Shown here piece after piece: positions 4,054 through 19,020 of a stretch of 19,436 nt of DNA (position 1 is the first letter of the stretch; every line of letters begins with the position of its first letter). The stretch is from Ruminococcus difficilis. Its GTDB lineage: Bacteria > Bacillota_A > Clostridia > Oscillospirales > Acutalibacteraceae. The DNA lies in contig NZ_JAEQMG010000087.1 of the NCBI RefSeq assembly GCF_016680995.1, positions 1-19,436 on the forward strand, written 5' to 3'. Under the pieces are notes generated by a model. The model saw only the letters and a program-made list of their open reading frames with translations, was not told the origin of the DNA and did no database searches. Position numbers and translations under genes: made by a program.

Positions 4054-4101
4054 AATCCTCGCGATAATTTGCTAAAATTATCATGAGGATTGTTGTTTTT
4101 T
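4054..4101 (+). terminator. Hairpin with T-tract between the kinase and the giant gene
   Basis: AATCCTC (4054-4060) pairs with GAGGATT (4085-4091), and GATAATTT (4063-4070) with AAATTATC (4075-4082); the loop is GCTA with a 2x2 internal mismatch, and GTTGTTTTTT follows. It could end the two-component transcript or act as an attenuator for the next gene, whose ribosome site is only 23 bases beyond the T-tract. An extended -10-like TTGCTAAAAT (to 4078) overlaps the hairpin as an alternative start of transcription. Confidence 0.7.
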
Positions 4102-10100: not shown

Positions 10101-10653
10101 TGCCTCGCAGGGCGAAGAAAGCACAAACCTGAGTGATTGCGATACGCAGGGCGATAAGATACTCATTGACTTCGGTCTTGCGTTTAATAATGCCGGAACA
10201 AAGCTGACGCCCGACGACAGGGCAGGATTTATCATCGAAAGACTCGATAAGCTTGACACCACAGAAGGAATACCGGTAACCGGATTAAAGGATTCAAACG
10301 CGATCACCAGCCTTTCGTATTATGAAAAGAAATACGCAGCGGGAAGCGGCAATGCTTATGCGTATGACAGCGATGCTGTTTTGTCCTCGGCAAATGGTTT
10401 TGCGGCGGACAGCAGCAATAAAACCAAACCCACATGCAGCGGAGCGGCGATATTCCGCGCTGCAACAATTGCCAAGCTTGACAACTTCGACAGAATGCAG
10501 TACACCAACACCTTTACAAACTTAAAGGACAGCGGTCAAACAGAACAGGCGCTGTATGTTTACAGAGCGACGTCCTATCTGAAGGTCAACAATCAGGATA
10601 CGGTGATCTCTGAGCCGATTTACTTTACTATTTATGATATTGCGTCTCGTTAA
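4138..10653 (+). CDS. Giant secreted modular surface protein (2171 aa), probably polysaccharide- or starch-associated
   Basis: Start at 4138 behind TGGAGG (4125-4130); an upstream frame extension lacks a ribosome site. Signal peptide: MKQRIKHFSK, then a hydrophobic stretch with LVSC (a possible lipobox) and ATDAAQ (a possible signal peptidase I site). Visible modules: an InlB/Flg_new-like beta repeat with GYKFSGW (about 180-260); a YIAGRFHV module (about 262-400); two tandem X25-like immunoglobulin modules, a type found beside pullulanases and starch-binding proteins (about 402-525 and 530-640); a Ser/Asn/Tyr-rich AT-rich insert (about 645-800); a large conserved-looking core with YEGLLQEKWG and GGYPGQPMLYWGG (about 805-1370); another GW-type beta repeat (about 1378-1431); and beta-rich segments to the end. 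No glycosidase motif, dockerin, cohesin, LPXTG or SLH anchor is seen. Binding or adhesion is inferred from modules and neighbours. Confidence 0.8.
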   Translation: MKQRIKHFSKSTMSVILAVCMLVSCLTVGLIATDAAQVTSENRVGASVGWTAADCYMHYSADGGTNWVNAAMDSEEKITLTLYSETTIRYFLVAERTWYRYNGYYTEKPSGTSTSSDNFYARISGTWNNNTTSDSDYIETTLPSGVYTITYETRYQYGNTSNVTLQYHFYRSGDAETQYAVTISAGTGGFVSPNSKQVGATTQTLPTAVPDYGYKFSGWTTEDTSTITLGNASSANAATISASGAGTVTANFAPDDGKSLYIAGRFHVKATDGANTYFNTWDGSTSDNWDDDSEVIQLLPTGNDFEYSVNTHCSFTELSQTIGDGSNTYDPYFFIYDKDITKRFFAPSSSTHLNASTTYVDLVEEGTTGAANNNMRFNYTSDDGPVIIFYNTITKRLRYELEGENYFVTSAGANDSTAGFTSNIWAAKDSAGKMTDNGNGTYSITFSEKEMGWYRFKINGYDGAASLGTWGGANVTYASDEGTAACITDKSTENSGNAKFYLTKTSDVTVTINTSTHEITVSAAATPGTVTYQYYIVGMASDGTSGMFDNVWADDWKVFSAEDKMTTSDGGTTYTLEKNDFGGSYGTYIYEAVRVGSDGSKEYYPGNSVTQTVDVTQKAKKVVYTLTFSGGDFLSLTADVTNKSNSSDETYDTIFVKGNKDDNYHLLYSSSGSQAAGYSHTSIQAYKITNSSSQNVYYFKIPVSSYVSTSSHAFLVTKNGTNYYNCASGNSSTLNISATRVERAKTYLTVETNNFNGDVNSSYKDNRYHYAKAKFNDSSYTSQFNYIVLAYNSSTKTYTFDVYGDASGGGTDPSFVNFVDLYAKNGNLRDSSYNRFTNLANTDVMSVTTPDGIVYTKDSHANWGTATSGGTWETDKSGYDSNYDKITNIPVGSKVVLRTTLSNNNQKFDDRYFSASHYLKAYSFNGYTYQLHTPAEAVTSGNAQYYEETWTAEAINAANMKSGKTVEITPIYYLKDNTYTKTFFIDGYEGLLQEKWGTLLCVYPYYKGSSNKSNAFGGYPGQPMLYWGGKFQMEIPLTVDGTATGKEIKGLTMHNAYWDLLHRKLDGKCDDGHCQTYDYDDFYKIYKEKNADTIFFRYKYYPKKDYSYNGATISAGHDNYGDGYSYDNHSFQNDSLNTAAKCVSAGNGVEIVTDYYGRQIDVFGTRLTSAQQSGYDGGTTPQTKELLLVSTGYKNTYVGHYATEWAVYAPASGYTKNNDAAHKFIGYISSSMLYLNNIGRVSQYSGGTNTGDGQMSSSKYKNTYNYLKEHYEGVPALISYEKEIHNYSLDQADRSDGKWYYSTSSDRLTANIKIQTTSATTDVTLLGDHNWTDSAFTAAGAGNETNVDANGNSAYFTNTTPEYLYGKTTSGSILADPSGQFTFQAYSGNGWTFVGWVRYSDGKYYEIADKDGLGSSNISANDTYIARFMPAAKGSLVISHNIVKDSTHKGDGTKYLKVEVMNGDSVVKTYEKTDGSDIDVSAYIDSTKYSSYKLRITLVTEPDEDCAVADRSVALGADSKYDRYRTDTSNNSIAPASPLDAGVTYNSVILVNISDVYDNTNGVTALRYTTELTKTELNYAYRIVYTYKSRFWGNQTYTVEGFVDEMESAKYFSGVKSTATLNKSFIVSSTPYEKNFRQKIDWNYDSMTNNAAGSPQALVTINGTAKENVYFMQAAVGSTNTVDDTVRAEFFLPYKYNEETKSETGLDLYNAEGTKLEGTEIAFDDRHYESSTVKSQAGHLFNYDSSIPNIPTSGQTTDDFPKLVKAAPYVLKKGVWNTEDSKWIFTNLSGDDFHYADTYTTKEYDGNMSFEIGGTYYYATETAPEDIPPGASTQQLTALNTESWFDDNGTSATYTFAKKDGDNVYYFYFEENECLGYKVSSKGNVIDGIIQNSNAEMTTEPSDASYTFYKKFYFTRWDIFTADGKTFVASSFANSRAFNYSGYEDYIIIPVYNDKESNSGRSTTITFMGDTRNQWNMGGLGHYKSGAVASQGEESTNLSDCDTQGDKILIDFGLAFNNAGTKLTPDDRAGFIIERLDKLDTTEGIPVTGLKDSNAITSLSYYEKKYAAGSGNAYAYDSDAVLSSANGFAADSSNKTKPTCSGAAIFRAATIAKLDNFDRMQYTNTFTNLKDSGQTEQALYVYRATSYLKVNNQDTVISEPIYFTIYDIASR

Positions 10654-10668
10654 AGGAGGAATGCACAA

Positions 10669-10800
10669 TTGAAAAAATATGATTCTCCTGAATTTGAATT
10701 GGTAAAGATTCAGCTCTTAAATCAGTTATGCGGCAGCGACCCGACCGATCCCGTTGAAGACAACGGCGAAGAACACAACTTTGACGATGGCTGGAATTGA
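10669..10800 (+). CDS. 43-aa YxxP-motif peptide with acidic tail, TTG start
   Basis: Its Shine-Dalgarno site AAAGGAGG (10652-10659) overlaps the stop codon of the giant gene and lies 9 bases before TTG at 10669. The nearer ATG at 10661 is only one base away and hits a stop after three codons. The product begins MKKYDSPEFELVKIQ, continues LLNQLCGSDPTDP and ends in an acidic, Asp/Asn/Glu-rich tail finishing DDGWN. A basic start, a YxxPxF/L motif, an alternating hydrophobic stretch, a turn with Cys-Gly-Ser and an acidic end resemble short peptides I recall from Firmicutes and Bacteroidetes, and loosely RiPP leaders (YxxP). No modifying enzyme, protease or transporter is in the window and there is no signal peptide. 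Function unknown; co-translation with the giant protein is likely. Confidence 0.72.
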   Translation: MKKYDSPEFELVKIQLLNQLCGSDPTDPVEDNGEEHNFDDGWN

Positions 10801-10861: not shown

Positions 10862-11767
10862 ATGAAAAAAATCATCAAATGTATTTCGTTAATGATCATT
10901 TCATCTTTGCTTTTAGTTACTTCCGTTGCCGGATTCAACGCTGTGACATTATATACCGACGGCGACTATACTTTTGCGGATGCCGACGCGGAAAGTGTTG
11001 CGTTGTATGGGTATAACGGAAGTTCCTCCGCCTTGGTAGTTCCGGCAAGCTGCAACGGCAGATATGTTTCATCTGTTTATAACTACGCTTTTGAAGATAA
11101 CACAAGCATTACCGCCATTGATTTTTCACAGGCGTCAAGGTTTTTTGACTCAATAGGGATGAAGTCCTTCGTCAACTGCACAGGACTTTCCGGTACGCTT
11201 TCGCTGCCGGCAAGCATTACGTCCCTCGGACACGGCGCCTTTCAGGGATGCACAAATATAACGGAGCTGCAAATGAATGCCTGCGTTGCGCAGATTCCGT
11301 CACAGTGCTTCAATAAGTGCGCCAGTTTAAGAACTGTTATAACTTCGCCTTTTGTGGAATCGATTGACAACCTCGCGTTCGCGAATTGTCCGTATTTGCA
11401 GGACATCTATTTGTCAACTGCCGTCACTTACATCAGCGACACCGCTTTTTTAAATTCCAACAGAGTACGGTTTCAGGTTTTTTATGACAGCTATGCCCGT
11501 GTATACGCGCAGGAGCACGGTTTTTCGTATGTGCTTCGTGACGGCGTTAAGCTGAGTGATGTGAACGGCGACAATAACGTCAATATCAATGATGTGACGA
11601 TGATACAGCGGCACCTTGCCGAGCTGGAAAGCGTTGAGGGAATCTACCTTTACGCAGCGGACGTTAACCGCGACGGCACCGTTGATGTTGCCGATGGGAC
11701 CGCTTTGCAGATGTATCTTGCCGGATACGATATGCCTGACCCGATCGGAGAGATACTGACGCAATAA
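10862..11767 (+). CDS. Secreted leucine-rich-repeat (BspA-type) protein with C-terminal dockerin
   Basis: A 301-residue protein starting at ATG 10862; an in-frame upstream extension to 10754 would overlap the 43-aa peptide gene and has no ribosome site. Signal peptide at residues 1-24 (MKKIIK, then a long hydrophobic core). Residues about 45-215 carry LRR_5/BspA-type repeats (AFEDNTSITAIDFS, SFVNCTGLSGTLSLP, AFQGCTNITELQM, CFNKCASLRTV). Residues 231-299 are a type I dockerin with two calcium-loop repeats, DVNGDNNVNINDVT and DVNRDGTVDVADGT, followed by IQRHLAEL and LQMYLAGYD helices. The dockerin should plug the protein into a cohesin scaffold; the LRR part may bind a surface or partner. It has no catalytic motif. 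It lies between the giant protein and the amylase and is followed by its own terminator. Confidence 0.88.
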   Translation: MKKIIKCISLMIISSLLLVTSVAGFNAVTLYTDGDYTFADADAESVALYGYNGSSSALVVPASCNGRYVSSVYNYAFEDNTSITAIDFSQASRFFDSIGMKSFVNCTGLSGTLSLPASITSLGHGAFQGCTNITELQMNACVAQIPSQCFNKCASLRTVITSPFVESIDNLAFANCPYLQDIYLSTAVTYISDTAFLNSNRVRFQVFYDSYARVYAQEHGFSYVLRDGVKLSDVNGDNNVNINDVTMIQRHLAELESVEGIYLYAADVNRDGTVDVADGTALQMYLAGYDMPDPIGEILTQ

Positions 11768-11777
11768 TACTTTTGTC

Positions 11778-11804
11778 AAAAAGGGCTTATGTTTTCCCCT
11801 TTTT
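11778..11804 (+). terminator. Terminator after the LRR-dockerin gene
   Basis: AAAAAGGG (11778-11785) pairs with CCCTTTTT (11797-11804) around an 11-base loop. The stem itself ends in five T residues, and the structure begins only 10 bases after the stop codon. The symmetric A/T arms could work on both strands. Confidence 0.65.
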
Positions 11805-11816
11805 ACCTCTATTTCA

Positions 11817-11843
11817 CCCCCGGAGTTTTTACTGCTCCGGGGG
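11817..11843 (+). other. GC-rich 9-bp hairpin without T-tract in the amylase leader
   Basis: CCCCCGGAG (11817-11825) pairs perfectly with CTCCGGGGG (11835-11843) around TTTTTACTG. It is followed by AACTTAAAAATTATAAAATT, not by T residues. No good -35 box lies between it and the amylase ribosome site, so it may be a 5' stabilizer or processing hairpin on readthrough transcripts. Confidence 0.6.
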
Positions 11844-11884
11844 AACTTAAAAATTATAAAATTTTAGATAGGAGGAGATATTTA

Positions 11885-13972
11885 ATGAAGAAGAAATTTT
11901 TATCGCTTGTTCTCTCACTTACGGTCGCGCTGACGGCTGCCTGTTCGCTTCACGCTTCTTTCAGCGCCGCGCAAGCTAATGATGCCGTCGGGCAGACGCA
12001 ATTCGCGCAGAATACCATTCGCGGCGCGGCGGTGCTGCACTGCTTCAACTGGTCGTATAACGAAATCAAGAATAATCTGCCCGATATTGCTGCGGCAGGG
12101 TACACGGCGGTGCAAACCTCTCCTGTCCAAAAACCGAAAAGCTATAAATCGAGCTATACAAGCACAAGCGGTCAGTGGTGGAAGCTCTACCAGCCGTTGA
12201 CGTTGAGTGTAGCCGACGGCGGAACGTGGCTCGGGACAAAATCCGAACTGAAAGCGTTGTGCTCGGAGGCGGACAAATATAACATTAAGGTGATCGTGGA
12301 TATTGTCGCAAACCACATGGCAAACAACACCTCCGGCGGCGGTTATTCCCACCTGAGCGAAAACGTGGAAAGCAATCTGAAAAACTCCGCGTATTATCAC
12401 AGCGAAACCTACGGAGTCAACGATAACAGCCGCTATGAGATGACCCACGGCCATCTAGGCATGCCCGATTTGAACACCGCCAACAGCTATGTGCAAAAGC
12501 GTGTGCTGGGGTTGTTGAAGGAATGTGTGGACTGCGGCGTTGACGGCTTCCGCTTTGACGCGGCAAAGCATATCGAGCTTCCCAGCGATGATTCAAGCAC
12601 CAAGAGTGAGTTTTGGCCGTACGTGATCAACGGTATCAAGAGCTACAAAAGCGACGTGTTCTGCTACGGAGAAATTCTCAACACCGCCGCGACGAGTATG
12701 TCAAACTACACCAAGTATATTGATGTAACCGACAATAAAACAGGAAACAGCGCGCTTTCCGCCGCGAAAAACAGCAATGCGTCTTCACTGGCGGCAAGCA
12801 ATTATCAAATGGGCGCAGGGGCTTCTTATTCTGTACTGTGGGCGGAATCGCATGATACCTATATGCACGACGAAACCTCGGGCGTTTCCAATTCCGTCAT
12901 AGCAAAGGCGTGGGCGATTACGGGCGCGAGGGCTAAATCAACCTCTCTGTATTTCGCGCGCCCGAACAGCACGATGGGACTTGCAAGCTCTGATACAAGC
13001 TGGAAAAGCACAGCCGTGAGGGAGATCAACAAATTTAAGAACTACTTTATGGGACAGAGCGAATATCTTGCTTCAAGCGGTAAGACGGCATATATTGAAC
13101 GCGGCACCACGGGCGTGTGCATCGCGAAGCTCGATGGCTCGGGCGACGTCAGCCTGACAGCCAACAAAATGGAGTCCGGCACATATAAGGATCAAATCTC
13201 GGGCAACACCTTTACCGTGTCGGGCGGAAAAATCAAGGGAACTGTCGGCTCCAAGGGCGTCGCTGTTGTCTATAACGCGCCTTCCGAACCGACGACGGTC
13301 CCCGCAACCGCAGCCCCGACAACAATCGCTCCCACAACCACTGTTCCCGCCACCACCGCTGCGCCGACCACGGTTGAGCCCGCTGCCGAGGAAACGCAGC
13401 CGACGACCGTTCCCGCAACGCAGGTGACGGTAGGCGATACCGATGAGGACGGAGAAATAACGATTAAAGATGTAACAACGATCCAACGTTATATTGCCGA
13501 ATTGGAGATCATGCCCCGCGTCGGCAAAACAGGAGATACAAACGGAGACGGAGAACTGGATATCGCCGACGCGACCTTGCTTCAAATGTTTCTTGCCGAG
13601 TATGACATTGAGAGCCGCATAGGACAGATCCTCACAATCGAAGCTCCTGCGTCGGAGCCGGCAACCAAACCGCAGGATTACACGGTGTATTTTACAAATT
13701 CACGCAGTTGGAGCGGTACGATCTACTGTTACTATTGGTCGGATGAAAACTCCCATATGCTTACATGGCCGGGAGAAAAAATGACCTACGACAGAACCAA
13801 CAGCAGCAATCAGAAAATCTATACCTTCACCGTTCCTGCCAATATTGATTATCTGATGTTTAACAACAATGATAAGCAAACTGTGAAAATCCCCTTCGAC
13901 GGCACCGTGCTGCGGTTCTACGCCAAAAGCAGTACCGATTCGAGCGGAAAATATGAATACGGAACATGGTGA
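11885..13972 (+). CDS. Secreted alpha-amylase, GH13 (subfamily 28-like), with dockerin and CBM26
   Basis: A 695-residue enzyme that would cleave internal alpha-1,4 bonds of starch. The start at 11885 has GGAGGAG in front; the frame upstream to 11789 is unsupported. Signal peptide at residues 1-31; LTAAC at 16-20 could also be a lipobox. Residues 45-465 match Bacillus AmyE in layout: AAGYTAVQTSP, VIVDIVANH (region I), GFRFDAAKHIELP with nucleophile D225 (region II), YGEIL with acid/base E263 (region III), and ESHDTY with H323/D324 (region IV). A Thr/Pro/Ala linker spans 467-513. A type I dockerin spans 517-585 (DTDEDGEITIKDVT, DTNGDGELDIADAT). A CBM26-type module spans 598-695 (VYFTNSRSW, YYWSD, WPGEKM). 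The layout fits a cohesin-borne starch complex such as the R. bromii amylosome. Confidence 0.95.
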   Translation: MKKKFLSLVLSLTVALTAACSLHASFSAAQANDAVGQTQFAQNTIRGAAVLHCFNWSYNEIKNNLPDIAAAGYTAVQTSPVQKPKSYKSSYTSTSGQWWKLYQPLTLSVADGGTWLGTKSELKALCSEADKYNIKVIVDIVANHMANNTSGGGYSHLSENVESNLKNSAYYHSETYGVNDNSRYEMTHGHLGMPDLNTANSYVQKRVLGLLKECVDCGVDGFRFDAAKHIELPSDDSSTKSEFWPYVINGIKSYKSDVFCYGEILNTAATSMSNYTKYIDVTDNKTGNSALSAAKNSNASSLAASNYQMGAGASYSVLWAESHDTYMHDETSGVSNSVIAKAWAITGARAKSTSLYFARPNSTMGLASSDTSWKSTAVREINKFKNYFMGQSEYLASSGKTAYIERGTTGVCIAKLDGSGDVSLTANKMESGTYKDQISGNTFTVSGGKIKGTVGSKGVAVVYNAPSEPTTVPATAAPTTIAPTTTVPATTAAPTTVEPAAEETQPTTVPATQVTVGDTDEDGEITIKDVTTIQRYIAELEIMPRVGKTGDTNGDGELDIADATLLQMFLAEYDIESRIGQILTIEAPASEPATKPQDYTVYFTNSRSWSGTIYCYYWSDENSHMLTWPGEKMTYDRTNSSNQKIYTFTVPANIDYLMFNNNDKQTVKIPFDGTVLRFYAKSSTDSSGKYEYGTW

Positions 13973-14655: not shown

Positions 14656-14745
14656 TGAGGAAGTGAAGCTTTGACAAGAGAATTTGACTTCGGAACAGAA
14701 AAAGCAATTGCAAATGCTGATCGACGCCATAAAAGAGGAGTGATG

Positions 14746-15105
14746 ATGGTGGCTGAGTATACTTTCAAAACCAATTTATCAATGGAAGAAATCAAGGATA
14801 ATTTTAAGAATATAGACTTTTTTGAGGGTGTAAAGAGCGGTTTGGAGGAAGCCTTGGCGTTTGAAAAAGGGCAGGCTGCCGCGGATACGTTCGCACGCAA
14901 AAGCTCGCTCCCACAAATAAATGTATCTGAGCTTCGGCATTCGCTGTCCTTGACGCAAAAAGCATTCGCCGCACTGCTCGGCGTTTCAACCAGAACCGTA
15001 GAGGCATGGGAAGGTGGAAAATCTACACCCACGCCCACCGCGAAGAAACTGTTGTTTCTTATTCAACAAGAACCGTCGCTTGTTCAAATGCTTCAAAACG
15101 CATAA
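14746..15105 (+). CDS. XRE-family (HigA/antitoxin-like) transcriptional regulator
   Basis: 119 residues from ATG 14746 behind AGAGGAG (14734-14740); ATG 14743 and an in-frame TTG at 14671 (with GAGGAAG upstream) are alternatives. The N-terminal 50 residues are acidic and helical (LSMEEIKDNFKNIDFFEGVK). A helix-turn-helix at about 62-106 carries LTQKAFAALLGVSTRTVEAW and GGKSTPTPTAKKLL, the pattern of HigA/MqsA-type antitoxin domains. The two palindromes upstream are its likely operators. A short frame ending at the TGA of 14740-14742, reading TSEQKKQLQMLIDAIKEE, overlaps the start region. It looks like the tail of a lost partner gene, possibly a toxin, but it is too short to classify. No toxin is visible downstream either. 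Confidence 0.85.
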   Translation: MVAEYTFKTNLSMEEIKDNFKNIDFFEGVKSGLEEALAFEKGQAAADTFARKSSLPQINVSELRHSLSLTQKAFAALLGVSTRTVEAWEGGKSTPTPTAKKLLFLIQQEPSLVQMLQNA

Positions 15106-15567: not shown

Positions 15568-15828
15568 ATTTATGACGGTAGCACTTATATTATCTTTCGA
15601 GCTGATTAAGAATTATTATGGGATCAGTTATCATTTATCTCCTCAGTGATTATCGATTAAGCAGAACAAGCGTGAACAGACAAAAGAGAGAAACTCAAAA
15701 AAGCATCAGTCACCTTTTTCTCTGCTGTTGGAAAAGTGCTGGTCTATTGATGCTGTTCCTAGATTTTTTGCAAGTTCTGACCTGGATTTTGCATAAATTG
15801 ATTTACGAGCTTACAAAAATCATAACAC

Positions 15829-15860
15829 GAAAAAAGGCTTGAAACCGACGTTTCAAGCCT
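15829..15860 (-). terminator. Minus-strand terminator of the tRNA-like transcript
   Basis: AGGCTTGAAAC (15835-15845) and GTTTCAAGCCT (15850-15860) form a perfect 11-bp stem with loop CGAC. On the minus strand it ends in a run of T residues (plus-strand A run 15830-15835). Confidence 0.85.
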
Positions 15861-15893
15861 GAGAAATCCAGTAATAATGCGAAAAATTAAGTC

Positions 15894-15941
15894 GCGGTTC
15901 CCGTTTGGAGACCGCTGCTCTACCAACTGAGCTATACCCCT
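15894..15941 (-). pseudogene. 5' half of tRNA-Trp (CCA anticodon), 3' half missing
   Basis: On the minus strand the sequence starts AGGGGTATAGCTCAGTTGG and continues TAGAGCAGCGGTCTCCAAA: acceptor 5' strand, D-arm, anticodon 5' strand and loop CTCCAAA of a tRNA-Trp. The next bases should be ACCGC, closing the anticodon stem, but CGGGA is inserted before ACCGC. After that no variable loop, T-arm (GGTTCGA) or 3' acceptor strand can be found. The sequence runs through AT-rich DNA to a terminator 34 bases further on. The promoter is intact. A normal tRNA-Trp must exist elsewhere. The break at the 3' side of the anticodon loop is a common crossover point for tyrosine recombinases. Confidence 0.75.
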
Positions 15942-15965
15942 AAATATTTAATCGCTGCAAATGAA

Positions 15966-16346: not shown

Positions 16347-16465
16347 ATTGAAGCAATATAGTTGGTAATACACAAAAAGTCAAGAGAAATCTTGTCAGGG
16401 TATTTGCTGGATATTGACCACTGCCTGTGGTATTGTTGTGGTTACCAAAACGAAGGAGTGATAGC

Positions 16466-17104
16466 ATGAAACGAGAATTATTAGACAACGGCAACATATG
16501 GCAGAAAAGCGATGGACGTTGGATAGGTCTGGTACGTTACAAGGATGAGTTCGGTGTGACGCAACGAAAGAGTTTTTCCAGCAAAAAGAAGAAAACGCTG
16601 CAAGCAAAGATGACGGACTATGTCAAAAACTTCAACGAGCAGGTCGCCAACTCTGATGAATCAAAAAAGCCTTTGAAAGAGAGTATGAAAAACTGGCTGA
16701 GGGTGTATAAGTTCCCGGAGGTGGAGCGCACGACCTATGATCGATATGAATGCACTGCTGAACACCAAATCTATCCTTACATCGGCAACAAGCCTGTCGG
16801 AGATGTTACTCCTGCCGATATTAAGAAACTACTCACTAAGCACATGAACGCAGGCTACGCTTTCACGACGAGCAAGAAAGCGTACTCACTGCTCAAGATG
16901 TTCTTCAAGCAGCTATATCAGGAAGGCGCGATACCGAACAATCCGATGGCACTGATTGATATGACGAAAAAGGACAACTACCTTGCCGCGCAGAACAAGG
17001 AGAGCAAGCCGCAGTGTGATATGGTGGTAGTGTTCACGGACGAGGAGCTGGAGCAAATCAAAGCGGAAGCCTTCAAACGCTTCGCAAACGGCAAGCCGTT
17101 CTGA
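16466..17104 (+). pseudogene. Tyrosine recombinase (phage/ICE integrase), catalytic half deleted
   Basis: 212 residues from ATG 16466, with AAGGAG at 16453-16458. Residues 1-60 form an arm-binding beta domain (GNIWQKSDGRWIGLVRYKDE). Residues about 68-165 form the SAM-like core-binding domain (MKNWLRVYKFPEVERTTYDR, IYPYIGNKPVGDVTPADIKK, YSLLKMFFKQLYQEGAIPNN). VVVFTDEELEQIKAEA marks the start of the catalytic domain, and the frame stops 14 residues after its last residue (A199). The catalytic R, H-x-x-R and Y motifs are all absent. Full-length relatives are near 380-400 residues. The sequence after the stop belongs to a different gene, so an internal deletion has removed the integrase end. It cannot recombine DNA; it might still bind attachment or arm sites. 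Confidence 0.88.
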
Positions 17105-17232: not shown

Positions 17233-18754
17233 GATTATTGTCTCGTGCCGCTTCCCAAAGAGCGCAAAGGATATAGCTGATCTAATAAGATATATGGCTA
17301 CCCGAGAGGGAGTTGAGAAGTTGCCTAACACCAAGAAGTATAAAATTGCAACCCAAAGTCAGCACGACCTCATCCTTTCTGCAGTGAAACATTTTCCTCA
17401 AAGCAAGAAGTTCCTGGAGTACGAGGACTTTTATGCCATGCCTACACGGGAGAACGCCGACGAGTTTCTGGATGCCGTCGCTGAAAGATATGCCGACCGC
17501 GTGGATGAATTGAAGGGCTTGGTCAGCTATATCTCCAATCGCCCGGGCGTTGAAAAGCTCGGCTCGCACGGATTGTTTACGCAATTCGATATGCCAATTG
17601 ACCTTGATACAGTCGCAGAACGGGTCGCCAATCACGACGGTGTTATCTGGACGGAGGTGGTCAGTCTTCGCCGTGAGGACGCGGAGCGTCTGCATTTCAA
17701 CAACGCCGAAGCATGGAAAAACCTCGTCCGCCGGAATATGAATGAGATCGCCAAAGCACACAGAATCAAGGTGGAGGACTTGGAATGGTACGGCGCATTC
17801 CATAATACAACGCACCATCCGCATATTCATTTGATAATTTTCTCGAAAGGGCAGGAGGGATTCCTCTCCGAGAAAGGCATCAAAGAGCTGCGCCGAGCCT
17901 TCGGTCAGGACATCTTTCGCGATGAGCAATACAAGCTGGCGACGATAGAAACCGGTTATCGAAATCAGTTGAAGGAACAGTTGGCTGACCTGTTGCAGCA
18001 GCTTCAAACACGGCAATCAATTCCCAACGCCGATTATTATCTTTTTCTGTTGAGAAAAATCCGAGATGAAGTTCAGCAGCAGAAGGGGAAGAAGCTCTAC
18101 GGCTATCTGCCAAGAAAGACAAAAAAGCTGGTGGATTTTGCTCTGCACGAGTTCGCAAAAGACGGTGATTTATCTGAAATATATGCAAAGTGGAACGAGG
18201 TCAACCGCGAAAAGTTAAGTCTTTACTATGATACGAAAGATAAACCGGACGTGCCCATTGAGAAGAATCCCGAGTTGAGGTCGCTGAAAAATATGCTTAT
18301 CAGGACGGCGTTGAGTATGAATTTCAACGCACAGACAACTGTAAATACTGCCCGTATAGGTTTTCTTTTCTCTATGCTGGCAAAGCAAATTGTCAACAGC
18401 GCAGGCAAAAGGTTAGATGAACTCAATAAGATGATGCCCCTGACCGACAGCAAGGAGCGAGATAAAATCCGCGAGAAAAAGCTGGCTCACGGTCAGAAAG
18501 AAGGAGCAGACAGCAGCGGTATCAATGAAGAAGTCTATGACAGCCAAGCCGCAGAGGGTATTTTGTCTATGCTTGACTACCTAATTTCGCTCGGCAATAA
18601 GGATAGTTCACAAGATAAACAAGAAGAATCTATATCACCTGAAGATGAATATGACTTTGACAATGCCTATGCTGAGTATCTAAATGACACTGATTACGGC
18701 TTTGATGAGAACGATGCGGATGCAGAGGATGAGTATTACGGCATGTCCATGTGA
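17225..18754 (+). CDS. MobL/MobP3-type relaxase, complete
   Basis: 509 residues from ATG 17225 with GGAGAGG at 17215-17221. The N-terminus carries the family signature around IRYMATREGVEK (21-32) with a candidate catalytic Tyr at 23, and SNRPGVEKLGSHGLF (104-118). The metal-binding motif at about 191-206 reads AFHNTTHHPHIHLIIF (H193, H198, H200, H202). A basic helical region follows, and an acidic tail ends EDEYYGMSM. The enzyme would nick its oriT and pilot the strand into a recipient, using a conjugation apparatus that is not in the window. The adjoining integrase and accessory gene are broken, so this element probably can no longer excise by itself. The 3' two thirds duplicate the gene at the left edge. 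Confidence 0.9.
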   Translation: MAKIIVSCRFPKSAKDIADLIRYMATREGVEKLPNTKKYKIATQSQHDLILSAVKHFPQSKKFLEYEDFYAMPTRENADEFLDAVAERYADRVDELKGLVSYISNRPGVEKLGSHGLFTQFDMPIDLDTVAERVANHDGVIWTEVVSLRREDAERLHFNNAEAWKNLVRRNMNEIAKAHRIKVEDLEWYGAFHNTTHHPHIHLIIFSKGQEGFLSEKGIKELRRAFGQDIFRDEQYKLATIETGYRNQLKEQLADLLQQLQTRQSIPNADYYLFLLRKIRDEVQQQKGKKLYGYLPRKTKKLVDFALHEFAKDGDLSEIYAKWNEVNREKLSLYYDTKDKPDVPIEKNPELRSLKNMLIRTALSMNFNAQTTVNTARIGFLFSMLAKQIVNSAGKRLDELNKMMPLTDSKERDKIREKKLAHGQKEGADSSGINEEVYDSQAAEGILSMLDYLISLGNKDSSQDKQEESISPEDEYDFDNAYAEYLNDTDYGFDENDADAEDEYYGMSM

Positions 18755-18769
18755 ACAGCGAGGTTAGCG

Positions 18770-18936
18770 CCCTGTTTCGCCGTGTATCGCCCTGTGTGCG
18801 ATTTGTTGGGGCAAGACGGGTGTGTGCCCGACCGGGTTGTTCGCGCGGTGTTGAGCCTTTGTCGCGGTTTGTGAGCAACATCTCGATTTGACAGATTGAT
18901 AGTGGTCATATCTATATTTGCCTGTAGCAGACACCC
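18770..18936 (+). repeat. Dispersed noncoding repeat, module A, copy 4
   Basis: The closest relative of copy 1, in the same place after its relaxase. It has the GTTTCGCC box, a hairpin CGGGT..GCCCG (18822-18835; a T-G pair where other copies have T-A), and TGTTGAGCCTTTGTCGCGG closing with CAACA. Confidence 0.8.
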
Positions 18937-18967
18937 TTTTTACTATACACGTAGTGTATAGTAAAAA
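18937..18967. repeat. Perfect 31-bp palindrome (module P), copy 2
   Basis: The same arms, TTTTTACTATACAC and GTGTATAGTAAAAA, and the same gta centre as at 1204-1234, while bases around it differ. Confidence 0.8.
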
Positions 18968-18980
18968 CCGAGCGATAGGG

Positions 18981-19020
18981 CTGTTCAAAATTTGCGACGC
19001 CAAACAAAGAAAAGCAATTT
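18981..19020 (+). repeat. Dispersed noncoding repeat, module B, copy 4
   Basis: CTGTTCAAAATTTGCGACGC then AAACAAAGAAAAG. Here module B is not followed by a DUF6809 gene but by another A module. Confidence 0.7.

Follow-up and report, generated by a model that had tools for sequence, protein, structure and literature searches.

The amylosome of Ruminococcus bromii is a dockerin- and cohesin-based starch system. Among modified peptides, the linear polyphosphorylated peptides (LPPs) were described by Popov et al. 2026 (PMC13381572), with a core set consisting of an SpI protease, a discrete RRE, an HprK-like kinase, an NTP transferase and an MsbA-like transporter. As set out in that paper, the leader follows the pattern YxxPxVLxHQxIxFETxxS, and the RRE binds YxxP, with D70 of LppB hydrogen-bonding the leader Tyr; cleavage is RRE-dependent and falls after T-1, Ser+3 is phosphorylated and the SpI triad is Ser/His/Asp. 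The discussion of the paper leaves the biological role of LPPs open, and word stems for Clostridia, Ruminococcus and dockerin do not occur in its main text (PMC13381572).

Here, we analysed a window of 19,436 nt (the whole stretch of DNA given above) with a 43-codon ORF directly behind the gene for a giant surface protein (Table 1). Starch-degrading gut and rumen bacteria keep this peptide gene beside the giant surface protein gene, and the ORF is confirmed as a genuine, conserved gene. Its product is likely an LPP-like RiPP precursor that is processed by RRE, SpI, kinase, NTP5 and ABC proteins, the enzymes acting in trans in the case of the window.

Table 1. Features of the giant-peptide-LRR unit and the adjoining amylase gene in the window.
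Feature	Position	Strand	Basis
Giant secreted surface protein, 2171 aa	4138..10653	+	ORF with its own Shine-Dalgarno site, ATG 4138, signal-like N terminus
Shine-Dalgarno site AAAGGAGG of the peptide gene	10652..10659	+	Overlaps the giant's stop TAA (10651-10653)
Putative RiPP-type precursor peptide, 43 aa	10669..10800	+	TTG start, TGA 10798-10800
BspA-type LRR protein, secreted and dockerin-bearing, third of the conserved trio	10862..11767	+	ATG 10862
GH13 alpha-amylase with dockerin and CBM26	11789..13972	+	Pfam; genomic context of the unit

The Shine-Dalgarno (SD) site lies 9 nt from the TTG start of the ORF, which encodes MKKYDSPEFELVKIQLLNQLCGSDPTDPVEDNGEEHNFDDGWN. The sequence-only reading had described this arrangement over the giant's stop correctly, along with the single Cys and the acidic tail (residues 23-43 contain eight D/E and no K/R). 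We infer the boundary between a leader-like part (residues 1 to ~22, with YxxP at residues 4-7) and the remaining acidic, core-like tail. The peptide has no Pfam and no NCBIfam match, and searching 5.8 billion proteins with its single sequence gave two homologues: P0001 (43 aa, 98% identical) and P0002 (56 aa, 70% identity), the called start of the latter probably being too early because the frame runs through what appears to be its own ribosome site. A genome search with the window peptide alone matched zero genomes. The gene had been presented as hidden but is only partly so: P0001 was already a predicted protein. Most relatives begin with ATG. The family as a whole has no Pfam or NCBIfam model. 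Against a profile of the family, of which it is itself a part, the window peptide scored E 4e-14; a wider profile matched 122 protein clusters at E ≤ 1e-3, and among the 120 of these 122 matches listed, all named clusters are 'hypothetical protein'.

The giant contains an InlB B-repeat domain (PF18998) and probably starts at the ATG given in Table 1, not at 4090; GHKL and LytTR genes both lie upstream of it. The LRR protein matches LRR_5 (E 5e-24) and Dockerin_1 (E 3e-12). The unit is bracketed by two related MobL relaxase genes (2-1279 and 17735-19011; 86% identical as DNA and 90% across 339 aa), and between them lies an integrase-type ORF (16427-17104). Trio and amylase are thus situated either on integrative mobilisable elements or between them. 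Located 3' of the amylase, 14671-15105 encodes an HTH / MqsA-antitoxin-like protein, with no toxin recognised adjoining it. On the minus strand, 15880-15945 (GGGGTATAGCTCAGTTGGTAGAGC...) resembles the 5' part of a tRNA; ARAGORN made no call for this stretch, which is possibly the remnant of an integration site.

Homologues of the giant numbered 68 at E ≤ 1e-3, of which 34 were aligned with the window's giant (alignment A2), and its relatives were followed in 34 public loci from Ruminococcus and further Clostridia; among them are R. bromii ATCC 27255 (L014) and 5AMG (L015), as well as Ruminococcus sp. FMBCY1 (L005). Peptides were first listed without the motif, as all SD-preceded small ORFs 3' of each giant stop, and all loci were later searched with the motif and then with the profile. 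A peptide of 41-104 aa starting M-K-K-x-Y-x-x-P was found directly 3' of the giant in 26 of the 34 loci (L001-L016, L023-L025, L027, L028 and L030-L034), the gap from the giant's stop being 11-25 nt in 20 loci, 47-68 nt in five and 213 nt in L024. Six other loci carry it 5' of the giant (L017, L019, L020, L021, L022 and L029; E 1e-10 to 5e-3), at a distance of ~1.8 kb and with a kinase in between in L022, and a weak match in L018 (E 3.5e-4, search of two loci) makes a seventh such locus; in L026 the giant runs past the contig end. Homologues are therefore present at the same place in related genomes, and the idea that the peptide is a partner of the giant holds in the genomic sense. Behind the second giant of L031, no intact peptide remains but only a strong SD and the decayed start of one (15773-15850), which looks like a lost copy.

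Across all fetched loci we counted 68 peptide rows at E < 1e-4, 67 of them distinct (L007 minus 135 repeats L082); start codons were 57 ATG, 9 TTG and 2 GTG in the 68 rows, one of which is a duplicate. YxxP is present at the N terminus of all 67 peptides, a count that is partly by construction because the profile was built on such peptides; the first listing was motif-free. The upstream frame is ≥900 aa in 48 of 68 rows (47 distinct) and an LRR relative lies 3' of 37 of the 67 peptides, in a set that is biased because many of its loci were gathered via the giant. The 30-peptide profile (A3) had matches in 20 of 20 genomes with a best E of at most 5.2e-9 in each; at E ≤ 1, a genome gave as many as five rows, and the lowest-scoring of these may be chance matches. 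Among 19 paralogue regions, 12 show the order large protein, peptide, LRR (L065-L072, L076, L077, L082 and L083; 1184 aa for the large protein of L077). The remainder have giant and peptide with no LRR gene next (L073, L078), an LRR gene behind a short or split upstream frame (L074, L075), an upstream frame of 330 aa (L079) or the peptide 5' of the giant (L080, L081). Some of these are redundant: L068 and L071, L076/L008 and L083/L032 duplicate each other or loci collected before. Two different genomes, G005 and G010, carry the trio and its neighbouring mobilisation-type genes (L068 4222-15001 and L071 3044-13825) at 96.7% identity across 10.8 kb, which suggests recent horizontal transfer.

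The R. bromii family was sampled with 299 genomes, in 45 of which the profile found the peptide at E ≤ 1e-3 (~0.3 expected by chance). In 20 regions picked from these matches, a long protein often but not always lies 5' of the precursor (present in L187, L188, L191, L192, L198, L200, L201, L204 and L205; absent in L196, L197, L199 and L202).

Genes for maturation enzymes form one operon with the peptide in some relatives and are found in the same genome in nearly all. The sequence-only reading had noted that no maturation enzyme is nearby. This is true of the 19,436 nt of the window, where no such gene was found, but not of the relatives, which carry RRE, protease, ABC, nucleotidyltransferase or kinase genes. 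Its description of the peptide as leader-like in the RiPP sense is supported. PqqD-type, signal-peptidase-like, HprK-related, ABC or nucleotidyltransferase proteins are encoded near the copies in L076, L078, L081 and L082. PqqD (PF05402) scored above cut-off in 22 of 23 peptide genomes versus 3 of 14 control genomes, and the profiles of the SpI-like protease and the HprK homologue each matched 22 of the 23, most of which are draft assemblies or MAGs. Neither RRE nor SpI was found in G016 and no HprK homologue in G011, and that of G003 is degenerate only, plus a fragment.

Contiguous operons of giant, peptide, LRR, RRE, SpI-like, ABC and NTP_transf_5 genes are present in L150 (with two LRR genes), L151 and L191; these clusters include the NTP transferase and an MsbA-like exporter and no kinase. 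Dockerins were identified in all three LRR proteins scanned (window, L151 and L083). In L187-L190, L192 and L193, one or two precursors lie 5' of genes for kinase, ABC, RRE and SpI proteins, the order of which varies; the cluster of L193 has no gene labelled ABC. Eight loci, including the two of R. bromii, have the order giant, peptide, LRR and HprK-like kinase, with an intact GxGKS (L005, L014, L015, L023, L025, L027, L028 and L030). An RRE-SpI pair or RRE-SpI-NTP5 trio also occurs in a separate setting, adjoining one common gene that we take to be groEL (L140, L141, L146, L152, L155 and L156). R. bromii is among the genomes with this setting, and the gene positions suggest that the enzymes act in trans there as well: in one R. 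bromii genome the peptide gene is at 15868-16005 of L015 and the RRE gene at 8078-8341 of L146.

The Tyr-binding residue of the RREs and the catalytic residues of the SpI-like proteins are conserved. An Asp equivalent to D70 of LppB is present in 40 of 40 RREs and the Ser/His/Asp triad in 32 of 32 SpI-like proteins. The equivalent of LppB N33, read by eye from the alignment, is Asn in 36 of 40 RREs and Ser in four, which are those beside degenerate HprK homologues. HprK homologues without P-loop and NDDK are encoded in L076 (407-1078), L082 (5029-5700), L138 (6426-7097) and L139 (8392-9069), and a model of the L138 protein (pLDDT 89) matches PEPCK folds, and HprK folds more weakly. A second RRE subtype adjoins an SpI-like/NTP_transf_5 fusion protein in L125, L126, L127, L132 and L157, and the small secreted dockerin proteins beside it lack a YxxP leader and end in a common tail, ELPFxP-like or ELPxxP.

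We then compared peptide and PqqD across the 299 genomes (peptide E ≤ 1e-3, PqqD E ≤ 1e-6). PqqD was found in 160 genomes: 44 of the 45 with the peptide, G257 being the exception, versus 116 of the 254 without it (Fisher p 1.9e-12, uncorrected for relatedness), and its presence in so many peptide-free genomes counts against the LPP-like reading. In at least 10 of the 45 genomes (G035, G074, G111, G136, G153, G185, G190, G191, G229 and G289), peptide and PqqD lie within ~12 kb of each other, compared with a rough estimate of 3% of genomes expected by chance (p ~9e-7).

What the sequences show is that the peptide is conserved and adjoins the giant, which enzyme genes accompany it in relatives and that their catalytic and Tyr-binding residues are kept. 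The most likely mechanism would be as follows. The peptide would be translated right behind the giant surface protein, so that both are made together. The YxxP leader at the N terminus would be captured by a discrete PqqD-type RRE and handed to the signal-peptidase-I-like protease, which would cut it off, perhaps close to the conserved motif D-[I/V]-[L/I/C]-x-x-S. Modification of the acidic core would fall to the HprK-like kinase and the NTP_transf_5 nucleotidyltransferase, and its export to the MsbA-like ABC protein, such that a short precursor is probably trimmed, modified and exported. Because the window has no enzymes, these would have to be supplied in trans by other parts of the genome. 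Several observations count against this reading: the enzyme-free window, the missing LPP signature, the weak score of LppB, the degenerate or cluster-absent kinases, and the genomes that lack RRE and SpI (G016), the HprK homologue (G011) or PqqD (G257). From gene order alone, we would guess that the mature peptide and the giant adhesin act jointly on the cell surface. We regard it as unlikely that the LPP-like RiPP is a modified-peptide part of the polysaccharide-degrading surface, attached to the starch-surface giant or to the polysaccharide; if true, a RiPP would have a structural or adhesive role and not that of an antibiotic or signal.

A short ORF with a TTG start could be spurious, or could be a regulatory leader that is translated into a product without function. 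This is extremely improbable here in view of the same-place conservation in many loci, the SD-like motif 5' of 63 of 67 peptide relatives and the purifying selection. The sequence-only reading had named a lack of same-place homologues or of purifying selection as grounds for refutation, and neither was observed. Nine pairs could be aligned, two of which were saturated in dS at the codon level, and the seven measurable dN/dS values were 0.11, 0.13, 0.14, 0.22 and three times 0.27; three of the seven derive from one set of three sequences, and none of the pairs contains the window's own peptide. Conservation lies in the N-terminal leader, whereas the acidic tail varies (mean information per column of 2.35 bits for residues 1-23 and 1.75 for the tail; 39 sequences). 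The peptide had also been proposed as a signal for the GHKL kinase. GHKL and LytTR genes do stand upstream of the giant in the window, but relatives of this pair occur in 1 of 53 related loci (L003), while the peptide stays by the giant, and a signal for this two-component system is thus very improbable.

More serious is the reading as a true LPP, in which the HprK-like kinase would polyphosphorylate a conserved core serine (S23 in the window peptide) and cleavage would remove the leader a short distance ahead of this serine, as described for Paenibacillus alginolyticus. The same five-protein set, a Ser at the S23 position in 26 of 39 aligned peptides and the intact kinase directly downstream in eight loci speak for it. 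On the other side, the LPP leader signature Px9Fx[T/A] is present in 0 of 67 peptides, as is HQ, the kinase is degenerate or missing from the cluster in several giant-linked loci and LppB is not nearest to our RRE profile. The profile matched TbiB1 (E 9e-9) and TfuB1 (E 5e-6), both solved with YxxP leaders, which speaks for the LPP-like reading, and also PbaB1 (1e-3); LppB itself scored weakly (E 0.096), and the profile is therefore nearer to lasso RREs than to LppB. A true LPP is possible but doubtful. The window-type peptide may work like an LPP precursor by gene set, but we do not claim LPP membership, and because the signature is missing we refer to an LPP-like RiPP precursor and not to a proven LPP. 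Most RiPPs with a known role are antimicrobial or signalling, and this, together with the variable core and the copies on mobile elements (L068 and L071), favours a peptide of that kind, for which adjacency to the giant merely gives co-expression. We consider this rather unlikely, since the giant adjoins the peptide in nearly all 34 loci and none of the trio stood out, in passing, as a gene for immunity or for a receptor.

An LPP-like precursor family tied to giant surface and dockerin-LRR proteins would give LPP-type peptides a concrete, testable role, the candidate being that a keystone starch degrader uses them for adhesion or for assembling its surface. Some precursors are also separated from the genes of their maturation and carried by mobile elements, places that cluster-based genome mining would pass over. 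Compared with LPPs as described in PMC13381572, the relatives have the same five-protein set with an archaeal-type SpI protease, a precursor with a conserved N-terminal YxxP and a variable C terminus, and the Tyr-binding Asp and SpI triad. They differ in the leader beyond YxxP, in that the window family's precursors adjoin giant surface protein and LRR/dockerin genes, often away from the enzymes, and in that the HprK homologue is degenerate in four clusters of window-peptide relatives. Paeninodin-type and other Bacillota lasso peptides, by published accounts, share the [Y/W]xxP leader, the discrete RRE and an HprK-like kinase and nucleotidyltransferase as accessory genes. However, the window-peptide relatives have a signal-peptidase-like protease in place of the B2 leader peptidase (PF13471 above cut-off in 0 of 23 genomes, with weaker matches at E ≤ 0.01 in 8 of 23), and no macrolactam cyclase was recognised among those neighbours scanned with Pfam. 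In the literature searched, by title and start of abstract, none tied a RiPP precursor or RRE to the R. bromii amylosome, and no paper combined 'PqqD' and 'dockerin'. The likeness to that amylosome lies in the dockerin-bearing LRR protein and the amylase beside the window peptide, and R. bromii itself has the giant-peptide-LRR-kinase arrangement (L014 and L015).
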